A DNA stretch of 36,981 nt from a virus: IMG/VR virus record IMGVR_UViG_3300029813_000311, positions 1-36,981 of that record. One strand, 5' to 3'. The notes under the pieces were generated by a model. That model was given only the letters and a program-made list of their open reading frames with translations, searched no databases and was not told the DNA's origin. Both the position numbers and the translations under genes were made by a program. This document shows, piece after piece, positions 2,798 through 23,360 of the stretch; within the stretch, counting starts at the first letter, position 1; every line of letters begins with the position of its first letter.

Positions 2798-5700
2798 TAT
2801 TTTTTAACCTCCGATGCAATTATCGTAGAGCCTTCATTGACATATGCATACTGTGAGCTATTACGATTACGTATTGCTCCAATATATTGATATGATTTAC
2901 CTGCGTCCAAAAAAGGGTCAAATACAGATACATGAGCGGGTATATCGTGAGCAGGATATGTAAATCCATATCGTATTCCCCACGAATTAACGTGTATTGC
3001 TTTACCACCGGACGTATATGCTGTGAACCAATCGCTGCGAGTAAGCTGTAGAGTAAACTCTGTAGTATTGACCACAGTGATTTTACAAATAGCATTATTC
3101 AATTCAATAGTTCCAACGATGTCCCAAAACCATACGAAGTCATCCGTATCAAGACCATGCGCAGCCGTCGTTGTAATTTTTACTAAATTTGCCCCGACTA
3201 ATGTGATTGTGCTAATCAAAAGTTCAGGATAAGTATCCTCAGTACGAAAAATTACATGCATTGCTTTCGAGACAAAAGTCACATCAACTCCATCTACAGA
3301 GGTATCGAAAACGACATGACAAGGAAACCCTGTTGAAGTAAATGAAGATGTCCATACTGCTGCTCGATACAGACCATAACCAGCCTGACTAAGAGGGCTG
3401 GGGTCTAAATAGTACCAATCGTCATCTTGTGTCGCTGTCAAGATCGTAACAGCCTCATTTTTTATATGTAAAGTGTCAACTACTAAATTATCTATTTGAG
3501 CACCACCCACGACGTTCAATACCGCCAAAGCTCCCTGACTGGCTATGGTAGCTGCCTCGTGGGTGCCGGTTACATCCGCCCCCGCCTCCGCCGGAGCATT
3601 TAATAATCCTAAAGCATTGATACCACCGATAATTATCTGGTCGGCGAGAATCTGTGCTGCTTGTATTAACCCAACGTGTAAAATTTGCATTGGAGTGGCG
3701 GATAGTGGAACACCATCCTGGTTATCACACATACTCCATCCACCGGCCAAAATCGAGGCAAGCATCTTAGCTCTATCATCCGTTTTCAAGAAGACATTCG
3801 GATTACTTGGGTCCCAGTAAATGTATTCCAAAGTGGTACTATCAGGGGTTATCTCGTAAGTTGCTCCACGATATCTAACGACAATAGGCTCATCTTCGTC
3901 GCACTTCTCCCAGTTTACAGTATCGACATCGTTACCAAGCCACGAACAATTGCCCGTCCACGGGATATCGGTATTGATTGCAGGCGGGAGCATCCGCGAT
4001 ATTATGTCAACGACCTCTTCCCTCGTTATCGGTTTGACCAGAGCTGCCGGTGGCTGCGACCATATATAACCGGGAGCGGGAAGGTTGGGATTGGCATCGT
4101 CACTTGCAAAAAGATTCGCATCGTAAGTTTCCAATTCCACGTCAAAGTAATTATCCATCGTATGACGTATTTTTATTATACGGCGTTCTTTAATCTTACC
4201 ATCCACACCCACTGCGAAAATGTTATTCTTAACAGGTGTGACATCCCAGGTGGTTGTAATGGTTACGACCTTGCCTGCGACGGAGGCTACGGTGTACGAA
4301 TCCACAACTACTTTTTCGTTGGCCTCATCATAGCTTCTAACGAATATGATGTCGTCGGCATCTGCTGTGCACGTTCTGTCCAACTCCACGGTGTTGTTGG
4401 CTTCACTCTTGATGACCCTATAACCCACGCCCCAGTCAGGGACCTTGTTTTGCATACGGACCACCCGGCCTAAGCGATAACGCAGTGCATCTTTGAACAT
4501 TCGCACGGAGTTACGATTCTTTATTAGCTCACTGCGTTTCAAAGCGTGGTTGCCTACCCTGGTCGCAAGCGCGCATCCCGTAACGCCGATACCTTCAACG
4601 GATACTATACGAGTATATAACCCGGCGTTCTCGTTATGTACCGGGCGTTCTTTCCTTTCGTAGCCAAGAAGCTTGTCCCTGTAAAAAACATTTACTTTGC
4701 CCGCCATCTCTCCGTGACCCGACCAGTTGCTCTTCCAGGAACGCAGCATCGTATTGTCCATAGTAATCAAATCAATCGGGTCATCAGTTACTTCCTTATC
4801 AATCCAGCCCGTGAGAGTATTTCCCTGCCAATATAGATACGTTCTTCCCACCTGTGAAATTTCATAAGCCAAGCTCCAAACATCCGTCTCGTAATCAATA
4901 CGCATATCGCAGGGCATCCGGTCTTCCTCATGGTCTGGTTCCGGCAGACCGGATGTTACCTGGGCGGCACACCACTGGGCCCACTCGTAAAAGAAAGCGA
5001 GGTCAATCCTGGATGGGTCGAGACCTTCGTAGCCCTCGATAACCCACGGATGCTCTTCACTGCCATCTCCGCTGATTACCGGCTGCGTAAGCTCATCGAG
5101 GGTAATGAAAGCCCTGTTATGGGTATGCTCCACCTCCCACGTTGAGCCATCGTAAACCTGAACGAGCTTATCATCGGCCACGAACTTAACATTGATGTGG
5201 CCGCTCAAACGAGATGTAGCAAGTGCGCGAATACCCAGCAACGCCCTGCCCGGATGAGTGAAAGCCGTGTCCACCACTTCACGCGTACTCCTCAGCCACA
5301 TCTCCCCACCGTAGCTGCCGCTGCCGGGTGTGGGCGTTGTTTTTTGCAGACGCAAGGTATAATACTTACCTCTAACAACCTTGCCTGGCACCTGAGTATT
5401 AACTTTGTAAGCCTTGTAAAGAGGATGCTGCTGACTGCCGCTGATGGTCGTATCCAAGAGTGTAGTCCAATCATCTTCGCCGTACTCTGAAATCTCCACC
5501 TTCACGCCAATGTCAAAGTTCGCAATGTTACCGCTGCTTTGGTAAGAAAAAATACCTCTTGGAAAGCCGAGTGTGTATTCGATGTCATCAACGAAATTAT
5601 TCTTTGTTGACCACAGCACAGGATCTTCATCGTAAACCATCTCTGCAGCAGGCCTGTATTCTAGCTTGTTCTGCTCAAAGCCCTGCATGCATGTTTGATT

Positions 5701-8880: not shown

Positions 8881-10488
8881 TTATTGAGCACGTACGTGCA
8901 ATATGGCTTTATCCTGTTCAACTATTTGAATAATACGGACTTCTTTATTTGTCAGGCCGTAACGTAAAGGAACATCCAGCTCATCTCCTCCGATATCGAC
9001 CTCGGCCGATGAGATACCTTTGATTGATTTATTTTCAACAAAGACATCCATTATGGGTCTGCTGCCGCCGGCCACGCCATCTATGGCCTCGGGGCCCGGG
9101 TATTCGATTATGGCTTCGATATTTCGGCTCAAACCAATACGCGGCCGATAAGTTATCGACTTGGCGCCTAATCCATCCATTGTGGGGCCTACGGCAAGCT
9201 GTAATGCCCGATCGGCGGCGTTGGGGCTTAGCATCCAGGATGAGGAGCTGGAGGACGACTGGCTGCTTTCTGATGACGATGAAGATTCGGATGAGCTTGA
9301 AGATTCGCTCGAAGATTCCGATGACGAAGATTCGGACGAAGATGAAGATTCCGAGGACGAAGATTCGGACGAAGATGAAGATTCCGATGACGAAGATTCG
9401 GACGAAGATGAAGATTCGGAAGATGAAGATTCGGACGAAGATGAAGATTCCGAAGATGAAGATTCGGATGAAGATGAAGATTCCGAAGACGAAGATTCGG
9501 ACGAAGATGAAGATTCCGAGGACGAAGATTCGGATGAAGATGAAGATTCCGATGACGAAGATTCGGACGAAGATGAAGATTCCGAAGATGAAGATTCGGA
9601 CGAAGATGAAGATTCCGAAGATGAAGATTCGGACGAAGATGAAGATTCGGAAGATGATGATTCGGACGAAGATGAGCTCGAGGACGACAGCGAGGAGCTG
9701 CTACTGAACGCAATGAAGAAATAAACCGGAGCAGCCTTTTTTTGAACCATACAAAACGGCTCTCGGCAGAGTAAAGCTCTTTCAGAAGCAGATAAGACAC
9801 GATTGTAAATTGTTGATATGTTGATTTGGCCATTGAAAGGGAGACTTGGGGAGATATCTGACATATACCCAAAACGTAATGTATCATTAGCTATAGTAGT
9901 CGAATTAAACCAAGCAGTTAAATCTGTTGATGTTAATGTTGGTACATCTGACATAACCTGCTGGACAGCATTTATATAACATTTATAGCCTGATCCATCC
10001 TGTGTTACTGCAACGTGAATAGTCTGCCCTGCTGAATATACTACATTGTCGGACTCCTGGATTATAAGCCAAATATTTGAAGATTTTCTCACTGAGACAC
10101 GAACTTTACCAGTATCTACAAGCCAGATAAATAATCCCCAATCATCGTGATTACCATTGTAAGCAAGTGAAAAAAGTGTTCCTTCATGTACTGATGTAGG
10201 TGTGACAGATATAACAACAGTGCCTCTTTCCAAAGGGTCTAATATTTCAGTTACTCCAGCAGTCGTCTCCATATAATCCGTATCTCCAGAGACAAATTGC
10301 AAGGCAGAACCGTATTTTCCAGCAACCCAAACTGGGGTGTTTACAGCATTAAGATTTAGCTCATTCCCCGATAAATCACGGACTTGACCGCCTGAGCCTT
10401 CATTGAATAGCCAGAGACCGACAAGACCTCTACTGAAAGGATGGCTTCTATTTAAGCGAATTCCTCTTGTGGGTTTAAGTTGTGGCAC
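8881..10488 (-). CDS. LamG-domain protein with long (SSSSSESSSSE)n linker and a head/neck-type C-terminal domain
   Basis: A 535-aa protein in three parts. Residues ~15-250 are a LamG / concanavalin-like jelly roll, with the family motifs GLVGLWLFNEGSGG near the start and FNGQINISTIYNRVLSASE near the end; such domains bind glycans or proteins. Residues ~260-425 are a Ser/Glu linker of 11-residue units encoded by a 33-bp repeat. Residues ~426-535 closely resemble the product of 21533-21880, sharing YPGPE/RPGPE, AGG/SGG, a VxVxNxSxxGIxSxEVDxGGD core and the final strand. This suggests a virion-attached lectin-like fibre. The start overlaps the upstream gene by 14 bases. Confidence 0.78.
   Translation of the reverse strand: MPQLKPTRGIRLNRSHPFSRGLVGLWLFNEGSGGQVRDLSGNELNLNAVNTPVWVAGKYGSALQFVSGDTDYMETTAGVTEILDPLERGTVVISVTPTSVHEGTLFSLAYNGNHDDWGLFIWLVDTGKVRVSVRKSSNIWLIIQESDNVVYSAGQTIHVAVTQDGSGYKCYINAVQQVMSDVPTLTSTDLTAWFNSTTIANDTLRFGYMSDISPSLPFNGQINISTIYNRVLSASERALLCREPFCMVQKKAAPVYFFIAFSSSSSLSSSSSSSSESSSSESSSSSESSSSESSSSSESSSSESSSSSESSSSESSSSSESSSSESSSSSESSSSESSSSSESSSSESSSSSESSSSESSSSSESSSSESSSSSESSSSESSSSSESSSSESSSESSSSSESSSSSESSQSSSSSSSWMLSPNAADRALQLAVGPTMDGLGAKSITYRPRIGLSRNIEAIIEYPGPEAIDGVAGGSRPIMDVFVENKSIKGISSAEVDIGGDELDVPLRYGLTNKEVRIIQIVEQDKAILHVRAQ
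9270..9690. repeat. 33-bp-period coding tandem repeat (Ser/Glu linker)
   Basis: About a dozen units of roughly 33 bp, each encoding SSSSSESSSSE on the minus strand. Serine codons vary freely among TCT, TCC, TCG and TCA and are nearly all TCN in the repeats. Synonymous drift between units indicates that the amino-acid pattern, not the DNA, is conserved. The other strand reads as an acidic Asp/Glu frame that is not a gene. Confidence 0.9.
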
Positions 10489-11249: not shown

Positions 11250-13094
11250 TCAATCCTCAATAATATTCTTAAACCATAATTCAGCCCTAAATTCTTCGAC
11301 CGCCCGCCTGCGGGCGGCCTGACCTTTAGCCTGTAATTGTTCGCTGTCGAGCGAATGCAATAAATCAATCACCTCATCGTGACTATCAATCAGCCAGCCG
11401 GTCTCCGGTGTCAACCTGTCCCTGGGACCATCCCGGTTTTCCGCTATTACGGATAAACCCGACGCCATGGCCTCTACAATCACCCGCGGCCCCTGCTCGG
11501 AATAAAACTCGGGCAAGAGATACCAGAAGCAATTGCCCCTTGCCAAGAACCCGGCCACTTTGGCCGGATTTTTGTCGTAAGGACATTTGATAATATTATC
11601 GGCATCAGCCGGCCAAGGCGGGCCCGGCATAAAGAGGAATTGGGCCGATTTCACTTGACGGCAGATTTCCTCCAGGTCAAGACTGAATTTCTGAGAGCCT
11701 TGGCTCGAATGCCTGACCAAACGAAGCTGCCCGTTATAATCCGGCTGTACCGTTAAGAATGGTTTCATATCAATCGGCGGGGCTAAGATGGTTGTCCTGG
11801 CATTCGGTAATCTCTTTAGAAACAGGTCCCGCAAGGTCGAGGACAAGAATAAATACTTGTCCCAGCCCCGCGTCCAGGGGACCTCGCCGGCCTTACCGCG
11901 TTTGTAGGTCAGGGCCATTACTTTACGCCCGGCCCTGATTCGGCTGAATATCTCGAATTGACCCTTATCGAAACTATAGACCATGTCAGAGGCATAAAGT
12001 AAAAAACAATCACAGCCCCTGGTAATATGGTTACTGATGATAACCCCTTCCGGGACGGCCTCTTTGAAATTAGTGCTCATTGCCCCCGCCGGCGAAAGCT
12101 CCACCCGCCAGTTATTGTCGCAGAATTGTTTGGCGATTTGCAAGGCCGAGCGTTCGGCACCGCCGAGGCATTTGGCATTGGTAACTATGCGAATAACCGG
12201 CCTTTTGCGGGCAATCTCAATCCGTCCTGCCGGCCTGGTCAATACACCGCCTTCGTAATATGATTTAACTGCATCGGCCACCTGGTCAACCCGTATCATG
12301 TCCATACAACGGGCGATATCTTTTACCCGGTTCTCGCAGGCGCCGATAGAATTGTGCCAGCAGGCCTTCTTCGAGCAGCAGGGCAGGCATCCCACCATGT
12401 CGATATAACGATGATTTGCATAATGCTCGAAGGTATTAGGCTCGCGGCCGCCGGCCAATACCACGCAGGGCTTGTCGAAAGCGGCCGCCACGTGCATCAA
12501 TGAGCTAATCAAGCTGATACAACCCTCGGAGTTATATACCAGGCTGAACAGCTCCCTGAGCTTGGTCTGATCTATTAAGTCGATAACGTTAGGCCCTCGC
12601 AGCCGGTTTTGATTGTCTTTTTTTAATCCGATCTGGACGAATGTAATATCTGGTAATTGCTCGACCAGATTTTGAAACCGCTCAGGCCACCACCGCTTGG
12701 CGCTGAACGGTCCGCAGTCGATATTTATTACCCAGTATTTGCCATCTATCAATCTCAGTTTCTTTTCATCTTCCGAGAGAAATATCTCCGGCTTGAATGG
12801 CCCCTGTTGGATTGGCTCTCCCAAGTGCTCCTCTAATGAGCAGCGAAAGGCGGCCGTAATATGCAGGCCGTTGGTCTTGGAGCCGCGGGTGACCTTGCCC
12901 GGCCCGATATGGAAGATCTTGACCGGACTGGTCATATTGCGAACGATATGCGGATTGTTCTCCCAAATCTCCGGGCCAATGGAATCGACTCCGATCTCCC
13001 AGTCCGGATGCGACTTTTTCAGGTCCCTGACCACCGGCGTAAACATCAATCTATCGCCCAGCAAAGGCTGTAAATTGGACAACAAAACCTTCAT
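11250..13094 (-). CDS. Bifunctional glycosyltransferase: GT9-like N-terminus fused to GT4-like C-terminus
   Basis: A 614-aa fusion. Residues 1-~270 follow the GT9 (ADP-heptose:LPS heptosyltransferase) pattern: start MKVLLSNLQPLLGDRLMFTPVVRDLK, a GPFSAKRWW strand-turn, and the acceptor-side motif EGCISLISSLMHVAAAFDKPCVVLAGG. A Cys-rich segment (GCLPCCSKKACW...GACENR) follows at ~235-265. Residues ~298-614 look like GT4: KCLGGAERSALQIAKQF early, and LPEFYSEQGPRVIVEAMASGLSVIAE with GWLIDS late, where E-x7-E donor-binding residues are expected. The product should act on cytoplasmic nucleotide-sugar donors to build a surface or virion glycan. It is the most distal gene of the six-gene cassette. 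Confidence 0.82.
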   Translation of the reverse strand: MKVLLSNLQPLLGDRLMFTPVVRDLKKSHPDWEIGVDSIGPEIWENNPHIVRNMTSPVKIFHIGPGKVTRGSKTNGLHITAAFRCSLEEHLGEPIQQGPFKPEIFLSEDEKKLRLIDGKYWVINIDCGPFSAKRWWPERFQNLVEQLPDITFVQIGLKKDNQNRLRGPNVIDLIDQTKLRELFSLVYNSEGCISLISSLMHVAAAFDKPCVVLAGGREPNTFEHYANHRYIDMVGCLPCCSKKACWHNSIGACENRVKDIARCMDMIRVDQVADAVKSYYEGGVLTRPAGRIEIARKRPVIRIVTNAKCLGGAERSALQIAKQFCDNNWRVELSPAGAMSTNFKEAVPEGVIISNHITRGCDCFLLYASDMVYSFDKGQFEIFSRIRAGRKVMALTYKRGKAGEVPWTRGWDKYLFLSSTLRDLFLKRLPNARTTILAPPIDMKPFLTVQPDYNGQLRLVRHSSQGSQKFSLDLEEICRQVKSAQFLFMPGPPWPADADNIIKCPYDKNPAKVAGFLARGNCFWYLLPEFYSEQGPRVIVEAMASGLSVIAENRDGPRDRLTPETGWLIDSHDEVIDLLHSLDSEQLQAKGQAARRRAVEEFRAELWFKNIIED

Positions 13095-13131
13095 CCTCGA
13101 TGTTTATTCCCTTATAAACCCTTATATATTA

Positions 13132-13860
13132 TTATCTTACAATTTCGCAAATCTTCTTTATGACCTCATCCGGCTCTGGCTGCCAGTCATCGGCCGTGAG
13201 CCAGCCGACCCTTACATTGAAAGGGTTCCAGGTCTCCTTATAACGCCGCTCCAAGGTCTGAGAGAAGTACGTCCGGCTATCTCCCCAAACTATTAAGTCG
13301 GTCCCGCAGGCCGCCGCCAAGTGCATAATGCCGCTGGAAACACCTATCACTAATTTGGCCCGCGCGAGCCTGTCCATCAGCCTTTGCAATTCGATGCCCC
13401 TGAAATCAGGATGACCCTGTACAAGCTGGTCGTTCTTTGTCCCGATAAAGGCCGAAGTCAATGCCAGGCCGGTTATCCGCTCAGCCAGCTCAGGCCATTG
13501 CCGATAATTGATTGAACTCTTTCGGCCTATCCCGCGGGCGTGGAGCAATATATCCTGGTCAATCGCAGCCTTTCCAGGCCTGCCGTATTTATAATATATC
13601 CCATCCGGCCGATACATTTTGGGATAATCCAATCCCCTGTTCGTTTTATCGTGCGGCCGAAACTCCGTGACGAAGTCGGTATATAAAGGCGCCATTCCCT
13701 TAAAGCTGCTGGCTAAAACCTGGTCATAGCTCAACGCCTTCTTGCGGCAGAACGGCACCCAGCTCATTATCTCCCAGCCCAATTCGCCGTACCAGGGTAT
13801 GAACTCAATCGCACGGCAGCCCGGCTTTATGTCAAAATCATATAGCTTTGCATCATTCAT
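13132..13860 (-). CDS. GT9-like glycosyltransferase-family protein
   Basis: A 242-aa protein whose C-terminal half carries the GT9 signature LVIGVSSGIMHLAAACGTDLIVWGD, preceded by a canonical helix (IELQRLMDRLARAK). The N-terminus (AIEFIPWYGELGWEIMSWVPFCRKKAL) resembles the GELGDxL loop of heptosyltransferase-like enzymes. It is shorter than a typical GT9 (about 320-350 aa), so the N-terminal Rossmann domain is reduced. It starts inside the end of the radical SAM gene (8-base overlap). The sugar and acceptor cannot be read from sequence. Confidence 0.75.
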   Translation of the reverse strand: MNDAKLYDFDIKPGCRAIEFIPWYGELGWEIMSWVPFCRKKALSYDQVLASSFKGMAPLYTDFVTEFRPHDKTNRGLDYPKMYRPDGIYYKYGRPGKAAIDQDILLHARGIGRKSSINYRQWPELAERITGLALTSAFIGTKNDQLVQGHPDFRGIELQRLMDRLARAKLVIGVSSGIMHLAAACGTDLIVWGDSRTYFSQTLERRYKETWNPFNVRVGWLTADDWQPEPDEVIKKICEIVR

Positions 13861-14602
13861 TCTGCCAGACTTTTCCCTCTATAAGGTTATCGCAGCCGGC
13901 ACAGCTCCCGAACAAATCGCATCGTGTCACTATCTCATCTCTCTCATCTTCATCTTTGATATGGCTGATTTTGTCTCGTCCCATACCCATTTTTGTTATA
14001 CAGGGATAGCGCCAGCCATCGGGACCATATACGTAATAGTAAGTGCTGCACCAAACAGGCCCGGGGTTCGGTTTAGTGGATTTATCATAGCCTCTCTGAT
14101 CGTCACAGCAAGTGACCTTAAACCCTTTGGCCTTAAGAAAATCCGCCCGCTCCGGCCAGTTGCCCTTTTTGACCACGTGAAATCGCACGGAGTGACCGGC
14201 ATCCATTAACCGGACTACCTGCTCGAACCATATATCATAATCCTTTACCGCCGGGTGCAGGCTTATCAGCCATCGCAGACCCCGGCCGCTGGCCAGGACC
14301 GCGGAGACATCGGGCATCAGGTTACTATAAATCTCTATCGCTATATCCCCTGATATTAAGCTCAATAGCTCCTTCATCTGCGGATAGAGCAACGGCTCTC
14401 CTCCTCCGAGCAAGATTTTACGACGGCGCCTGTTCAGGCCTTCGGCCCATTGAGAAGCGGGTATCCAGATTTCTTTCCTCTCCGCCGTCAATTTTGGAAT
14501 ATCGGCCGAGCAGTAACTACAATTAGCCGTACAGTCCAGGCTCAGATAGCACCGCATGACCCGGTCCCGTACCCTTTTGATTCGCTCATAAAAAATCTTC
14601 AT
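13853..14602 (-). CDS. Radical SAM protein
   Basis: A 249-aa protein. Cys24, Cys28 and Cys31 in DCTANCSYC form the CX3CX2C motif that binds the 4Fe-4S cluster used to cleave SAM. GGGEPLLYP at ~67-75 is the conserved GGEP element. A C-terminal set of cysteines (WCSTYYY, YPCITK, RCDLFGSCAGCDN) suggests an auxiliary cluster as in SPASM/twitch proteins. I chose the ATG at 14602, in an ATGA overlap with the upstream gene; an extension to 14689 would run into that gene. It lies between glycosyltransferases, so it may modify a sugar or a carrier, but the substrate is unknown. Confidence 0.83.
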   Translation of the reverse strand: MKIFYERIKRVRDRVMRCYLSLDCTANCSYCSADIPKLTAERKEIWIPASQWAEGLNRRRRKILLGGGEPLLYPQMKELLSLISGDIAIEIYSNLMPDVSAVLASGRGLRWLISLHPAVKDYDIWFEQVVRLMDAGHSVRFHVVKKGNWPERADFLKAKGFKVTCCDDQRGYDKSTKPNPGPVWCSTYYYVYGPDGWRYPCITKMGMGRDKISHIKDEDERDEIVTRCDLFGSCAGCDNLIEGKVWQNE

Positions 14603-15273
14603 TTTCCTAAAATCCTTTTTATTGCATTCGTATAAGGCAATTTTTGCTCTTTGCTCGGACCGGCAGCGGCATGGATTAAAACATGCCAATCATAAATTAA
14701 CTGTGCTTTACATAATCCGTTAAAACGAGGTGGTAATAAGGGCAAATCAAAGAAATGTCGAGCAAACATCAAGGGAACCTCATCTCCGCACCAAAAATCT
14801 TTCTCGCAATATTTATCAATTATCTCCTGCCATTTATGCCAGCAGTTCATAAAATTTATCCGCATATCGGCAGGCAGCACAACAACTCCCGAATTGCACC
14901 AAACCGGATAATCGAATTTTATCCACAAATCATAAACATAACTAAATGATTTCAATGGTCGGAGAAATCCCATCGTATGCTTATTCCGTTGTTCCGGGCA
15001 AAAATAAAATACATCCATAACTCCCCGGCAATCCTCACTCTCCCAATCTCCCGGCCCAGTCATCACTGTATCGCTGTCGAGATAGATATATTTATCTGCT
15101 TGCGGAAGCCCGGACTCCGCCAATAATCTTTTCTTATATTGATGCCATTTCTGGCCCTTCGGTATATCAAATAAGTGAATCTCCCTGCCAAAATATTTGC
15201 CGGAAGCAATAAGAATATCCTCAGCTTCGGCCTTTCGATTCTCATCGGCAATCGTAAAGAAAAAAAGTTTCAT
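14599..15273 (-). CDS. GT8-like glycosyltransferase
   Basis: A 224-aa protein with a GT-A fold pattern. The metal-binding DxD is at residues 66-68 within KYIYLDSDTVMTG. NSGVVVLPADM at ~127 and a late HAAAG element (~205, in the place of the family's second metal ligand) match GT8-type retaining transferases. It is short, without membrane anchor, and so probably cytoplasmic. ATGA overlaps on both sides (with the epimerase upstream and the radical SAM gene downstream) tie it to one translation unit. Donor sugar unknown. Confidence 0.75.
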   Translation of the reverse strand: MKLFFFTIADENRKAEAEDILIASGKYFGREIHLFDIPKGQKWHQYKKRLLAESGLPQADKYIYLDSDTVMTGPGDWESEDCRGVMDVFYFCPEQRNKHTMGFLRPLKSFSYVYDLWIKFDYPVWCNSGVVVLPADMRINFMNCWHKWQEIIDKYCEKDFWCGDEVPLMFARHFFDLPLLPPRFNGLCKAQLIYDWHVLIHAAAGPSKEQKLPYTNAIKRILGK

Positions 15274-16151
15274 TTATATTCCTCTAAATGCTCGCGATAA
15301 TAATCGATCGTCCGGAGCAATCCCCTTTCCAGACCGATCATATTATTTGATTCATAATCAAGTGGCGCCAAAGTTTTTATATCCGCAATCACAAAACTAT
15401 CATCCATTTCGCCCGACCGCATCGGCAGATGATTGATAATTGATTTGGAATTCGATAACTCAATAATGGATTCGGCGATATGATTAATATCTGTTTCTCG
15501 CCCGCTTCCTGCCTCTATAACATTATGATAAACTCTGTGCTCGTTAAGCAGCGCCCGGCAGAGAATCTCAGCTAAGTCATCGACATAGATAAAATCCATT
15601 ATCTGTCTGCCCGAACCATAAATCGTAATCGGTTTATTTCGCAATGCCCACAGAACAAAATTAGGAATGACCTTTCTTACCGGCTTATGCTTTTGATAAG
15701 GCCCGTAAGCGTTAAGCCCGCGAACCACCGCTATCCGCGTACCGTGCTCTCGATTATACATCAATGCAAACCGCTCCGCGCACGTCTTGGTAATGGCGTA
15801 TGTATTGAGCATAAAATAATTACCCACGGCGATATAGCAAGCGGTCTTATCGAATCTTCGGCATGCCTCGAATAAATCAAGCGAGCTGATGATATTGACC
15901 TTGGCCGGTCCGACCGGCTCATCGACGGTCTCGGCCGTCCCCAATAATCCCGCTAAGTGCATAACAGCATCAGCCTGCTCAATACAGTCCCAGAGCTTTT
16001 TTTTATCCAACATATCACCGTAACAATAATTCGCTCCCTCGAATGCCGGTGAATTAATATCATAAACAACGATGCTATGACCTTTATCGAGCAGCTTTTT
16101 CACCATATATCTGCCGATGAATCCTGAACCGCCTGTAATTAAAATCTTCAT
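15270..16151 (-). CDS. NAD(P)-dependent sugar-nucleotide epimerase/dehydratase (extended SDR)
   Basis: A 293-aa protein. Residues 7-13 (GGSGFIG) form the Rossmann dinucleotide-binding loop, Tyr118 and Lys122 (YAITK) form the catalytic YxxxK, and GLNAYGPYQ plus DFIYVDDLAE are characteristic of NDP-sugar epimerases. The family interconverts or dehydrates NDP-hexoses, so it would supply the donor for the neighbouring transferases. The Thr/Ser expected upstream of YxxxK is not obvious: the text reads IAVGNYFMLNTYAITK. The exact reaction is therefore uncertain. It is coupled to both neighbours by ATGA overlaps. Confidence 0.87.
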   Translation of the reverse strand: MKILITGGSGFIGRYMVKKLLDKGHSIVVYDINSPAFEGANYCYGDMLDKKKLWDCIEQADAVMHLAGLLGTAETVDEPVGPAKVNIISSLDLFEACRRFDKTACYIAVGNYFMLNTYAITKTCAERFALMYNREHGTRIAVVRGLNAYGPYQKHKPVRKVIPNFVLWALRNKPITIYGSGRQIMDFIYVDDLAEILCRALLNEHRVYHNVIEAGSGRETDINHIAESIIELSNSKSIINHLPMRSGEMDDSFVIADIKTLAPLDYESNNMIGLERGLLRTIDYYREHLEEYK

Positions 16152-16726
16152 TTTTTTACCTTTCTAAATATAATTGTTCCACATATCCGGCTTACAGGAC
16201 ATCTTCCCTGTTCTTGCAGGCAATCCGAGCCATCAGACAATATCATTTCAATCGCCTTATTCACCTTAGGTGAAGGAGGTCCGTAAATATCATGGAAGCC
16301 GATAAGACCTCCGACCCTCACAAAATGGCTCCAATAATAATAATCCCGCAATACCGACCGCGTTTGATGGTCCCCGTCGATAAAAAGAAAATCGATAAGG
16401 TCGGGCAAATCGAGATGCACCGCCGGCGACCAGCCTGCAACCATGGTCACAATTTTGTCCAAACCCATCTTCCGGATATTATCAAACCATTCCCGCCGCG
16501 GCCTGGTCTCAACCGACCATAGATGCCCACCGGTATTTTGCGCCGCCAGACCCAATACCATGCTCGAGGTCCCTCGAAAGGCCCCGATTTCAACGAGGCA
16601 TTTTGCCTCGATTGCCAATGCCGATTGCCAGAGCAGCTTACAATCGTCAATCGATAACTTAGGGTCATTGGCCCGTGGGCTGCCCATCCGGATTATCTTT
16701 TGCCAATCAGGTTGTTTAATGTCCAT
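16148..16726 (-). CDS. Class I SAM-dependent methyltransferase
   Basis: A 192-aa protein. Motif I is CLVEIGAFRGTSSMVLG at ~43-59. The acidic motif after strand 4 is DFLFIDGDHQ at ~111-120, and VRVGGLIGFHDIYGPP follows, a pattern typical of the Methyltransf_24 / cephalosporin-hydroxylase-like sugar methyltransferases. It is first in the glycan cassette. GGAGG embedded in the end of the upstream gene serves as its ribosome-binding site. It probably methylates a sugar residue, for instance to cap a glycan; substrate inferred from context only. Confidence 0.82.
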   Translation of the reverse strand: MDIKQPDWQKIIRMGSPRANDPKLSIDDCKLLWQSALAIEAKCLVEIGAFRGTSSMVLGLAAQNTGGHLWSVETRPRREWFDNIRKMGLDKIVTMVAGWSPAVHLDLPDLIDFLFIDGDHQTRSVLRDYYYWSHFVRVGGLIGFHDIYGPPSPKVNKAIEMILSDGSDCLQEQGRCPVSRICGTIIFRKVKK

Positions 16727-17368: not shown

Positions 17369-17440
17369 TATTAGTTTTTAGTTTTGAGTTTTGAATTTTG
17401 AGTTATAACTAAGAACTAAGAACTCAACACTCAAAATTTA
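17366..17440. repeat. Intergenic TTAGTTTTTAG / ACTCAACACTCAAAA repeat cluster
   Basis: Between the tape measure and M-like genes lie words TTAGTTTTTAGTTTTGAG and AACTAAGAACTCAACACTCAAAA. They are of the same degenerate family as 1850-1935 and 36807-36881. The left half is T/G-rich and the right half A/C-rich, so a long imperfect hairpin can form. It could separate transcripts but has no clean terminator signature. Confidence 0.6.
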
Positions 17441-19153
17441 CCTTGCCGCTTGTTTAATACACCTTCGTAACTCTCCATCTGTCTTCGCTTTTTGCATGAA
17501 AATGTTAAGAAATCTCTGGCCTGAAACAATCTCCTCTTCCACGCGAGTAACCTCTCTCCGTTCACCTTCCTCAGTATATTCGTTATGGATACGGATTTCG
17601 GTTGTACCCATACCTCCACCCTGTACACCCGAGAATATTTCGCCTCTATGCACCTTAGCCAAACCCGTTTCTAAAACCGTACCGCCATATTGTAAGCTAC
17701 CAGCAGGCCAATATGGTGTACCACTGGGTGCGATTGACTGCCCAGTCATTGCTGCTGTAGGCACGGCTGCAATAGTGCCAGGTAATGGCAAACCCATAAT
17801 GCCGTAAGCAAGCGGCTCAGCCATCTTTTTGTACATGATTATCTTAAATATTTCACGTTGCAGACTCCGAGCCATATCTTCCATTGCATCCCAAAACTTT
17901 TTACCTTCATACATCATCTGGTCTATCGCATTTGTCCACGAGCTTGCCATAGACATAGCAATATCTTCGGAAATTCTCTTATGTCTATCGGCCGCTGCTT
18001 TTGCTATTTCCAATGACTTATTTCTTGCTTTGAGCTCTTCGGATTCTCTAAGTGCCTCTGTAAATCTTTCCACAGCCAATTGAGCACCCGCTACATCAGC
18101 ACCATAACGTACTTTTGCTAAAGCGCTAAATTGCGTAAGTTTCTGCTCTCTTGCCAATTCATCACTAAGGCCTCTGGCTTTCATGCTCATTGCATACATC
18201 GATGCAGCAGCTTTCTCTTGTGCTTCTGTCATCACATTAAGAGCAAGTGTATTTTTCAACCATTCCGGCTCTTCAAAACGAACAATTTCAGGAATATATT
18301 TCTGATGGGCCTTTATCTTACGCTCCCCTTCAATATCCGGCATGGGGATACGCGGAAAACCCATAGGTCTGAGTCCAAATTTTTCCCTTGCTTCTCTTGC
18401 TTTTACCGCAGCTTCTTGATATTTTTTTAATGCCTTTGTTGCCTCCTGAATAATAATTGTCAAAGCCGCAGTATTTTTAGTCATCGGCTCCATAATTGGC
18501 TCTATCATCACTTCCGCCAAGTCACCAACCGCATTCCCCATTTGCTTAAAAGTACCGGATGTCGTTTCTGCTTGTGCCTCAGCTATTGCCCAACCTCTCG
18601 TAAGAGCCTCTTGTAATATGATCATTTTTTCTTGATGAGTAGTTACTGCTCGCATATCAACAACATATGTTTCTAATGAACTTGTAACACCTTTCAGCGC
18701 TTGGGCATAATATCGCATAGCCATTTCAGGACGCATCCGTCCACCAAAAGCAGCACCAAGAGACAATGCTGCTTTAGTTGCCTCTTCTAATTTATCTTTG
18801 GAAATTCCAAGCGTAGAACCCATACGCATCAAAGCCAAAACTTCTTCATCTCCATATATGGTTGCTTTTTGTATAGAAGCAGCAAATGCTTCAAATCCTT
18901 CCATCGTCTCAGCGGTATATTCTTCGGTAACTTTTAGCGCTGCTTCTAATTGAAACAAAGCATCCTCTTGCTTCATGGCCGCCTTGATAATGTAATCAAA
19001 TCCCCTCTTGACGGCATACAATCCACCGCCGACTCCGGCGAGCTGCAGCATCTGCCGGCCCATCCTCTTAATGCTACTATTGAATGAATTGATCTGGGCA
19101 TTCGCCCGGTTGCGGGCGATAAATTCCAGGCCGACTTTTGTCATTAAAGCCAT
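17438..19153 (-). CDS. H: Tail tape measure protein
   Basis: A 571-aa helix-rich protein placed after the G/T chaperone pair, as in lambda and most siphophages. The N-terminus (LEFIARNRANAQINSFNSSIKRMGRQMLQLAGVGGGLYAVKRGF) matches the tape-measure start seen in many prophages. Ala-rich coiled-coil segments follow, with one hydrophobic segment (~455-480). The start overlaps the stop of T by one base (TAATG). Using about 0.15 nm per residue for the family, the tail would be roughly 85 nm, shorter than lambda's. It is AT-richer than the head genes, consistent with mosaic origin. Confidence 0.85.
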   Translation of the reverse strand: MALMTKVGLEFIARNRANAQINSFNSSIKRMGRQMLQLAGVGGGLYAVKRGFDYIIKAAMKQEDALFQLEAALKVTEEYTAETMEGFEAFAASIQKATIYGDEEVLALMRMGSTLGISKDKLEEATKAALSLGAAFGGRMRPEMAMRYYAQALKGVTSSLETYVVDMRAVTTHQEKMIILQEALTRGWAIAEAQAETTSGTFKQMGNAVGDLAEVMIEPIMEPMTKNTAALTIIIQEATKALKKYQEAAVKAREAREKFGLRPMGFPRIPMPDIEGERKIKAHQKYIPEIVRFEEPEWLKNTLALNVMTEAQEKAAASMYAMSMKARGLSDELAREQKLTQFSALAKVRYGADVAGAQLAVERFTEALRESEELKARNKSLEIAKAAADRHKRISEDIAMSMASSWTNAIDQMMYEGKKFWDAMEDMARSLQREIFKIIMYKKMAEPLAYGIMGLPLPGTIAAVPTAAMTGQSIAPSGTPYWPAGSLQYGGTVLETGLAKVHRGEIFSGVQGGGMGTTEIRIHNEYTEEGERREVTRVEEEIVSGQRFLNIFMQKAKTDGELRRCIKQAAR

Positions 19154-19425
19154 TATTTACCTTTTACTATTGTTCTGAATAGCTGGGCGATTTCTTCGTC
19201 CGTCTGTTCTTCCGCCATTTCAAAATCGAATAACTTTAGAATCTTTTTGAACGATGGCTTGCGCTTGCCGCTGAAACAACAAGCCGTGACATACGCTATT
19301 ACGGCCGCCTGGTAATCGGCACGCTTCGGTCCCCAGGGGTCGACCTGCTCCAAAATCTTCTTCTCGGTCAGCTCATAAGCGCTCATCCGCTCATTAAGCT
19401 CAGGCACCGTCCAGCCCATGCTCAT
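19153..19425 (-). CDS. T: Tail assembly chaperone T-like part (made as G-T by -1 frameshift)
   Basis: A 90-residue frame lying between the G-like gene and the tape measure. It is in the -1 frame relative to G. From the slippery site at 19476-19482 this frame is open for 17 codons through the stop of G and into the annotated ATG. It is therefore most likely expressed mainly as the C-terminal part of a G-T fusion of about 224 aa. ATG codons at 19425 and 19419 offer weak independent starts. The sequence is helical (SAYELTEKKILEQVDPWGPKRADYQAAVIAYVTACCF). In lambda, gpGT recruits the tape measure and tail tube protein. Confidence 0.75.
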   Translation of the reverse strand: MSMGWTVPELNERMSAYELTEKKILEQVDPWGPKRADYQAAVIAYVTACCFSGKRKPSFKKILKLFDFEMAEEQTDEEIAQLFRTIVKGK

Positions 19426-19427
19426 CG

Positions 19428-19826
19428 CTAATCGATGCTTGAATCTTCGTTCTCGGGCTTCTGGCCCATCTGTGAGTTTTTTACCAGGCCCTCAATCTCC
19501 TTGTCGTCCATACCACTTAATCGGCGGGAAACATTCAGAATCGGGTCGACTATGGAAGCTGGTATCTGGCAAATACGGCCGATATCGTTATCACCGAATA
19601 AGCGCTTGCCTTGTTGATTGTGGACTGTCAGCATTAAAAGCTGTGCCCTGGCATTGGCCAAATGAAACCGGCTGCTCCCTTTGGAAAAACGAAATACGCT
19701 GTTTTCATATTCATCCTTCTGGCCTGATGTCAGGCCGTAAATCCAGATGTCACCGATACCGGGTACCTCAATTTTTTCACGAGGCACCTTTGCTTTGAAA
19801 AAAACTTCTTTTTTAGCCCATTCCAT
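19428..19826 (-). CDS. G: Tail assembly chaperone, lambda G-like
   Basis: A 132-aa protein, MEWAKKEVFFKAKVPREKIEVPGIGDIWIYGLTSGQKDEYENSVFR..., between the tail tube gene and the T frame. It matches the size and position of gpG-type chaperones, and the beta N-terminus plus helical C-terminus fits the family. A slippery heptamer lies 16 codons before its stop (GTA AAA AAC in frame), so a fraction of ribosomes should continue into T. The stop TAG is at 19430-19428. Confidence 0.78.
   Translation of the reverse strand: MEWAKKEVFFKAKVPREKIEVPGIGDIWIYGLTSGQKDEYENSVFRFSKGSSRFHLANARAQLLMLTVHNQQGKRLFGDNDIGRICQIPASIVDPILNVSRRLSGMDDKEIEGLVKNSQMGQKPENEDSSID
19476..19482 (-). promoter_or_regulatory. Programmed -1 ribosomal frameshift site (A_AAA_AAC)
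   Basis: On the minus strand the seven bases read AAAAAAC and are phased as GTA AAA AAC in the G frame, the canonical X_XXY_YYZ heptamer. After slipping back one base, codons CTC ACA GAT GGG and on remain open to the T frame. The position matches the G/T frameshift known from lambda and conserved in siphophage tail chaperones. Confidence 0.8.
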
Positions 19827-19829
19827 AAT

Positions 19830-20279
<450 letters not shown>

Positions 20280-22937: not shown

Positions 22938-23360
22938 TTAAGTACTCGAAGAGCTTGAGCTCGAAGAGCTCGACGAAGAACTTGAGGAGCTCGACGATGA
23001 GCTAAATTGCACGTATGCAATATGCGGCAATACCTCGATTATCGAGCCATTTCCGCTGGCCGTGTCCAAAGCAGTACCAATCAGTATCGTACCACTAGCG
23101 GCAATCTTGCCTCCGGCAGATGCGTATGCCTTTTGACCTGCACTGATTGCACCGGAAGCCATTATTTTATGCGAGCCACCATGCTCCCAAAGCCGAACGG
23201 CCACCGTATTACCATTTGTCACTATCACCTGGGTCACACCAACACCATACTCGGTGCTCGATGCCTTCATAACGGTCCTGCCGTGGGCCTCGACCCTTAG
23301 AAAAGCCGCTATGTCCTCGCCCGCGGTAAGAGTTATTGGTGAATCCGATTGATTTGCCAT
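22938..23360 (-). CDS. Head decoration protein (DUF2190-like) with poly-Ser C-terminal tail
   Basis: A 140-aa protein. The body is a small beta-tulip domain as in capsid decoration proteins: SPITLTAGEDIAAFLRVEAHGRTVMKASSTEYGVGV and ISAGQKAYASAGGKI. In lambda the comparable D gene also lies between protease/scaffold and the capsid gene. The last ~21 residues are serines and a final Thr, in mixed AGC, AGT, TCA, TCG, TCC and TCT codons, so the run is kept at protein level. The tail would be exposed on the head surface or threaded at threefold axes. One of three Ser-tailed virion proteins in the window. Confidence 0.8.
   Translation of the reverse strand: MANQSDSPITLTAGEDIAAFLRVEAHGRTVMKASSTEYGVGVTQVIVTNGNTVAVRLWEHGGSHKIMASGAISAGQKAYASAGGKIAASGTILIGTALDTASGNGSIIEVLPHIAYVQFSSSSSSSSSSSSSSSSSSSST

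Follow-up and report, generated by a model that had tools for sequence, protein, structure and literature searches.

A predicted lambda/HK97-type G/GT -1 frameshift in a virus of a probable planctomycete phage lineage

Lambda and many other phages make two versions of a tail-helper protein by a -1 slip, and the slippery heptamer of lambda is G_GGA_AAG. Based on the sequence, we consider it very probable that the virus described here uses a programmed -1 frameshift of the same lambda/HK97 type between its genes G and T. The mechanism itself is already well known, and the locus is a further, otherwise ordinary case of it. The window (the whole stretch of DNA analyzed) is a viral contig 36,981 bases long. 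As in lambda G/GT, the proposed -1 frameshift lies near the 3' end of G and would fuse T to it; the T domain belongs to the same Phage_tail_T (gpT) family, and the pair occupies the same place between the major tail protein and tape measure genes, the latter being assigned in the window by position. The window differs from lambda in its heptamer, A_AAA_AAC, and has a dual-coding stretch of 15 codons past the site. The predicted fold of the window's G also matches the HK97 tail assembly chaperone (gp13/gp14), at ~12% sequence identity.

The best annotated homolog of the predicted fusion is gp13/gp14 of Streptomyces phage Dubu (MK937595; 32.8% identity, 79% covered), in which gp14 is annotated as a tail assembly chaperone joined from two pieces, as in our model of the window. 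In Dubu, the shorter gene, gp13, ends in GGGAAAC directly before its stop, whereas AAAAAAC of the window lies 15 codons before the stop. From 58 records with a match, 11 named phages were examined, and 10 of these contain a canonical heptamer: GGGAAAC in Dubu, Rooney and Yara; AAAAAAC in Mcat6, Mcat32 and Psymv2; AAAAAAG in Mcat14 and two E. coli phages; and GGGAAAG in Salmonella SP-016. Thermobifida P1312 has no heptamer. By published description, the g-t genes of the haloarchaeal viruses HCTV-1, -2 and -5, which have archaeal hosts, are similar, with A_AAA_AAC in HCTV-2, as in the window, and G_GGA_AAC in HCTV-1 (PMC5009743). A literature search for frameshifting in planctomycete tail assembly chaperones returned the GeneTack survey (PMC3711429) as its sole match.

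The features of the locus are collected in Table 1. The G codons GTA AAA AAC end at 19476 on the minus strand, which places A_AAA_AAC at 19482-19476 in phase with G; the coordinates and phase given for it in an earlier note on this DNA are borne out by the sequence. The note had also described a -1 frame free of stops for 17 codons and then entering T. This frame is indeed open from 19476 to 19153 and reads LTDGPEARERRFKHRLA-MSMGW..., with 17 codons preceding the first ATG of T at 19425; a second ATG follows at 19419, both just past the G stop. Translation confirmed the length of the predicted G-T fusion, put at ~224 aa before, as 224 aa, and the junction peptide foreseen for it (K/N then LTDGPEAR) agrees with the sequence. 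For annotation, this provides a corrected gene model with a joined 224-aa product.

Table 1. Features of the G/T locus and its neighbors in the window
Feature	Position	Strand	Basis
G, 132 aa without frameshift	19428..19826	-	ATG 19826 to TAG 19428
Slippery heptamer A_AAA_AAC, in phase with G	19476..19482	-	Sequence; kept in relatives; synonymous codons frozen
Dual-coding overlap: last 15 codons of G and stop; -1 frame gives Arg-rich T linker	19428..19475	-	
T domain, -1 frame, 107 codons and stop; predicted entry from G by frameshift	19153..19476	-	PF06223, phrog_337
Major tail protein, upstream of G	19830..20279	-	PF16461, phrog_158; 21-Ser C-terminal tail
571-aa ORF past T, probable tape measure protein	17438..19153	-	Gene order (next after T) and length
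GGAG and GAGG ahead of heptamer, possibly a weak Shine-Dalgarno-like stimulator	19485..19500	-	Anti-SD energy
Small 4-bp hairpin, 8 nt past heptamer; function doubtful	19455..19467	-	Folding against shuffles

In the proposed mechanism, most ribosomes would stop at the end of G (19428) and yield the 132-aa chaperone G, while a minority would slip by -1 on A_AAA_AAC, with tRNA-Lys and tRNA-Asn re-pairing on AAA AAA. The slipped ribosomes would then read 17 Arg-rich codons, enter T and produce the 224-aa G-T fusion. If assembly proceeds as in lambda, the tape measure protein would be coated by many copies of G and a few of G-T, with the T domain recruiting the major tail protein. We infer the slippage itself, its efficiency and this role in assembly. 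The window's own T ATG may provide a second entry to T besides the frameshift. One point against the mechanism is that A_AAA_AAC is described as weaker than A_AAA_AAG in E. coli (PMC5009743).

The identities of G and T that had been assumed from the letters were recovered by profile searches. G matched the PHROG tail assembly chaperone family phrog_344 (E 1.9e-15) and had no match in Pfam, whereas the T frame matched Pfam PF06223 Phage_tail_T (E 9e-9, above the cut-off) and phrog_337 in the PHROG search (E 2.5e-12). A structural model of the 117 residues of G up to the heptamer, built from a 16-sequence alignment, had a pLDDT of 86.9 and a pTM of 0.80. Foldseek matched the model to the HK97 tail assembly chaperone 2OB9 (E 2.1e-3, probability 1.00), which was also its best match in VIA, with a Z of 10.7 and an rmsd of 4.2 over 100 residues; the next best Z was 7.8. 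By sequence profile and predicted fold, G is thus identified as a tail assembly chaperone. When the profiles of G and T were searched against PDB sequences, only chance matches were returned, and an NCBIfam search returned no meaningful match. The gene order in the window is major tail protein, G, T and a long ORF. The protein upstream of G was identified as the major tail protein by PF16461 (E 1.5e-6, above the cut-off) and phrog_158 (E 8.2e-9). The 571-aa ORF downstream of T had no match in Pfam and PHROG searches and is probably the tape measure protein, judged from gene order and length alone.

The host is likely, though not proven, to belong to Planctomycetota (Phycisphaerae). In a scan of genomes, the only cellular match was a contig of a Phycisphaerae MAG. 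This contig is phage throughout, with 27 of 40 window queries matched (the T query was off frame, and its miss is uninformative), and therefore provides a binning link only. In a second genome of Phycisphaerae, a terminase ~50% identical to that of the window lies inside a 4.25-Mb contig, where only two other window proteins matched near it (the off-frame T query was used here as well). The MAG contig and the related terminase support the earlier description of a planctomycete-type phage, which nevertheless stays unproven.

To characterize the conservation of the site, relatives were collected in three scans of viral contigs and one scan of genome contigs. With the window counted, we obtained 28 distinct pairs of homologous G and T genes; duplicates (same contig or sequence) count once, and L020, L027 and L043, in which one partner is missing, are left out. 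T lies in the -1 frame relative to G in all 28 pairs. Relatives lacking the in-phase heptamer, which would speak against the conserved recoding that had been claimed, were looked for, and 27 of the 28 pairs keep a canonical in-phase X_XXY_YYZ heptamer within the overlap. These comprise 22 AAAAAAC, one AAAAAAT and four GGGAAAC; all 27 heptamers have AAC or AAT as their second slippery codon, and none ends in AAG. At 60% identity the 27 heptamer-bearing sequences form 10 clusters. The G/GT recoding thus appears to be kept in this lineage, which is poorly annotated and probably consists of planctomycete phages. One pair, L041, has two slippery heptamers in tandem at 2151-2160, with GGGAAAA overlapping AAAAAAC in phase. 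The sole pair without a canonical heptamer, L042, is a distant high-GC relative; its G/T overlap (2962-3046) has an ATG overlapping the G stop, and it possibly makes T by another route. Because it offers no heptamer as an anchor, L042 does not enter the tests of start codons, alignment and structure.

The synonymous codons at the slippery site are frozen. All 22 V-K-N sites use GTA AAA, a choice with P ~10^-26.5 under each locus's own codon usage when sequences are treated as independent, and P ~10^-11 (summed by hand) with one representative for each of eight clusters. The window itself contains 68 in-phase X_XXY_YYZ heptamers, 16 of them A6N, in 10,891 codons of 38 provisional minus-strand genes, so that an overlap of 20 codons is expected to hold 0.12 canonical heptamers and 0.03 A6N. 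Taken alone, the heptamer of the window is therefore suggestive only, and we accept the frameshift signal as real because the relatives keep both the heptamer and the -1 frame.

The lack of heptamers ending in AAG raises the question as to whether the recoded site, with its AAC-type second codon, is adapted to hosts where a separate tRNA-Lys(CUU) exists and slippage on A_AAA_AAG would be poor; we regard this as a tentative and rather unlikely refinement. The Phycisphaerae MAG has tRNA-Lys UUU and CUU together with tRNA-Asn GUU, a set consistent with a host reason for AAC and not a proof of it, and a review argues, for Thermus dnaX, that tight pairing with AAG is to be expected of a second tRNA-Lys (PMC5009743). 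However, this rests on the tRNAs of one host, AAC occurs also in Moraxella and Psychrobacter phages, and the 27 pairs are related, so that AAC may reflect simple descent. Of 45 Phycisphaerae prophage matches to the T domain listed, 18 loci were examined, and these carried six AAAAAAC, one AAAAAAG, two AAAAAAA, one CCCAAAA and one CCCAAAC, with none in seven. The single AAG exception and the two AAAAAAA sites count against the adaptation, and AAC exclusivity, which we had considered, is broken by these loci. Among the stronger matches, AAAAAAC accounts for six of 11, and several of the weaker loci are probably not G/T pairs. If the adaptation were true, slippery codons of tail chaperones might predict the tRNA-Lys content of the host; the AAC bias lends itself to an inexpensive comparison of phage slippery sites with host tRNA-Lys content.

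An independent start of T at its ATG at 19425 or 19419, coupled to the termination of G, with the heptamer being incidental, is very improbable as a replacement for the frameshift. The window's ATG codons do sit just past the G stop, and ATG or TTG occurs there in five of the 26 other pairs of the T alignment. Nevertheless, in the interval from the heptamer to the conserved T core, only six of 27 pairs have a start codon, the window among them; the other 21 have no ATG, GTG or TTG there, and therefore the fusion is their only evident route to T. The T-frame linker RRxRxRxA is conserved over the 27 aligned pairs, ahead of the window's ATG and upstream of any start codon in most, and neither the retained heptamer nor its frozen synonymous codons fit an incidental site. 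Across the dual-coding stretch of the 27 pairs, the free G tail is acidic (mean charge -2.7) and the fusion linker basic (mean +3.6), a contrast that probably just follows from reading Arg codons in the alternative frame.

Slightly less probable still is a change of frame during transcription, with the polymerase slipping on the A6 run. The site does consist of six consecutive A, but this length is short for polymerase slippage. GGGAAAC, found in four of the 27 pairs and three of the 11 named phages, keeps the X_XXY_YYZ pattern and breaks the homopolymer, which argues against polymerase slippage. We practically dismiss the possibility that a single gene was divided into G and T by mutation or by an error in sequencing or assembly, to which a homopolymer would be prone, as the -1 arrangement recurs in 28 of 28 distinct pairs from different contigs.

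Sites of programmed G/GT frameshifting are frequently, not universally, accompanied by a stimulatory RNA structure or an SD-like element. In the window, the fold of the 80 nt past the heptamer had a z of -1.61, and 11 of 200 shuffles were equally good. Over the 27 pairs, downstream windows of 40, 60 and 80 nt compared with dinucleotide shuffles gave mean z values of -0.28, -0.61 and -0.92, similar to control windows elsewhere (z down to -0.88); thus, no excess of conserved downstream structure over control windows was observed at these three lengths. A mean z of -1.17 against neighboring windows was attributed mostly to composition. The upstream GGAG/GAGG stretch resembles the dnaX arrangement. 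Its anti-SD energy in the window is -6.4 kcal/mol (rank 0.05 within G/T), and against neighboring windows the SD-like stretch had a mean z of -1.14. Compared with synonymous recoding, the mean z was -0.73 with a median P of 0.31 over the 27 pairs, and for the six codons in the window P was 0.29. A separate SD-like stimulator is therefore not supported, as the stretch does not exceed the synonymous expectation and is largely explained by the encoded residues.

Beside the frameshift locus, the serine tails of the major tail protein look less ordinary than the frameshift itself. The ORF upstream of G has 12-21 Ser in its last 30 residues in 20 of 27 pairs, including the window, where 21 consecutive serines close the protein; such a tail was absent or not found in the other seven (L006, L023, L034, L035, L038, L039 and L041). 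Mixed TCN and AGY serine codons in the window suggest selection for serine itself. In a literature search for polyserine with phage tails, the term was not found among the best 10 of 114 matches. Further serine runs occur in two other predicted proteins of the window, as a C-terminal poly-Ser tail (22938-23360) and as long SSSSE-type repeats (8881-10488, minus strand). Between the putative tape measure and the tail-tip genes, sugar-related genes are located (11250-16726, minus strand), encoding two GT9-like glycosyltransferases, an NAD-dependent epimerase, a radical-SAM-like protein (below the cut-off) and a Methyltransf_24 protein. As an idea only, the products of these sugar-related genes might modify the serine tails.
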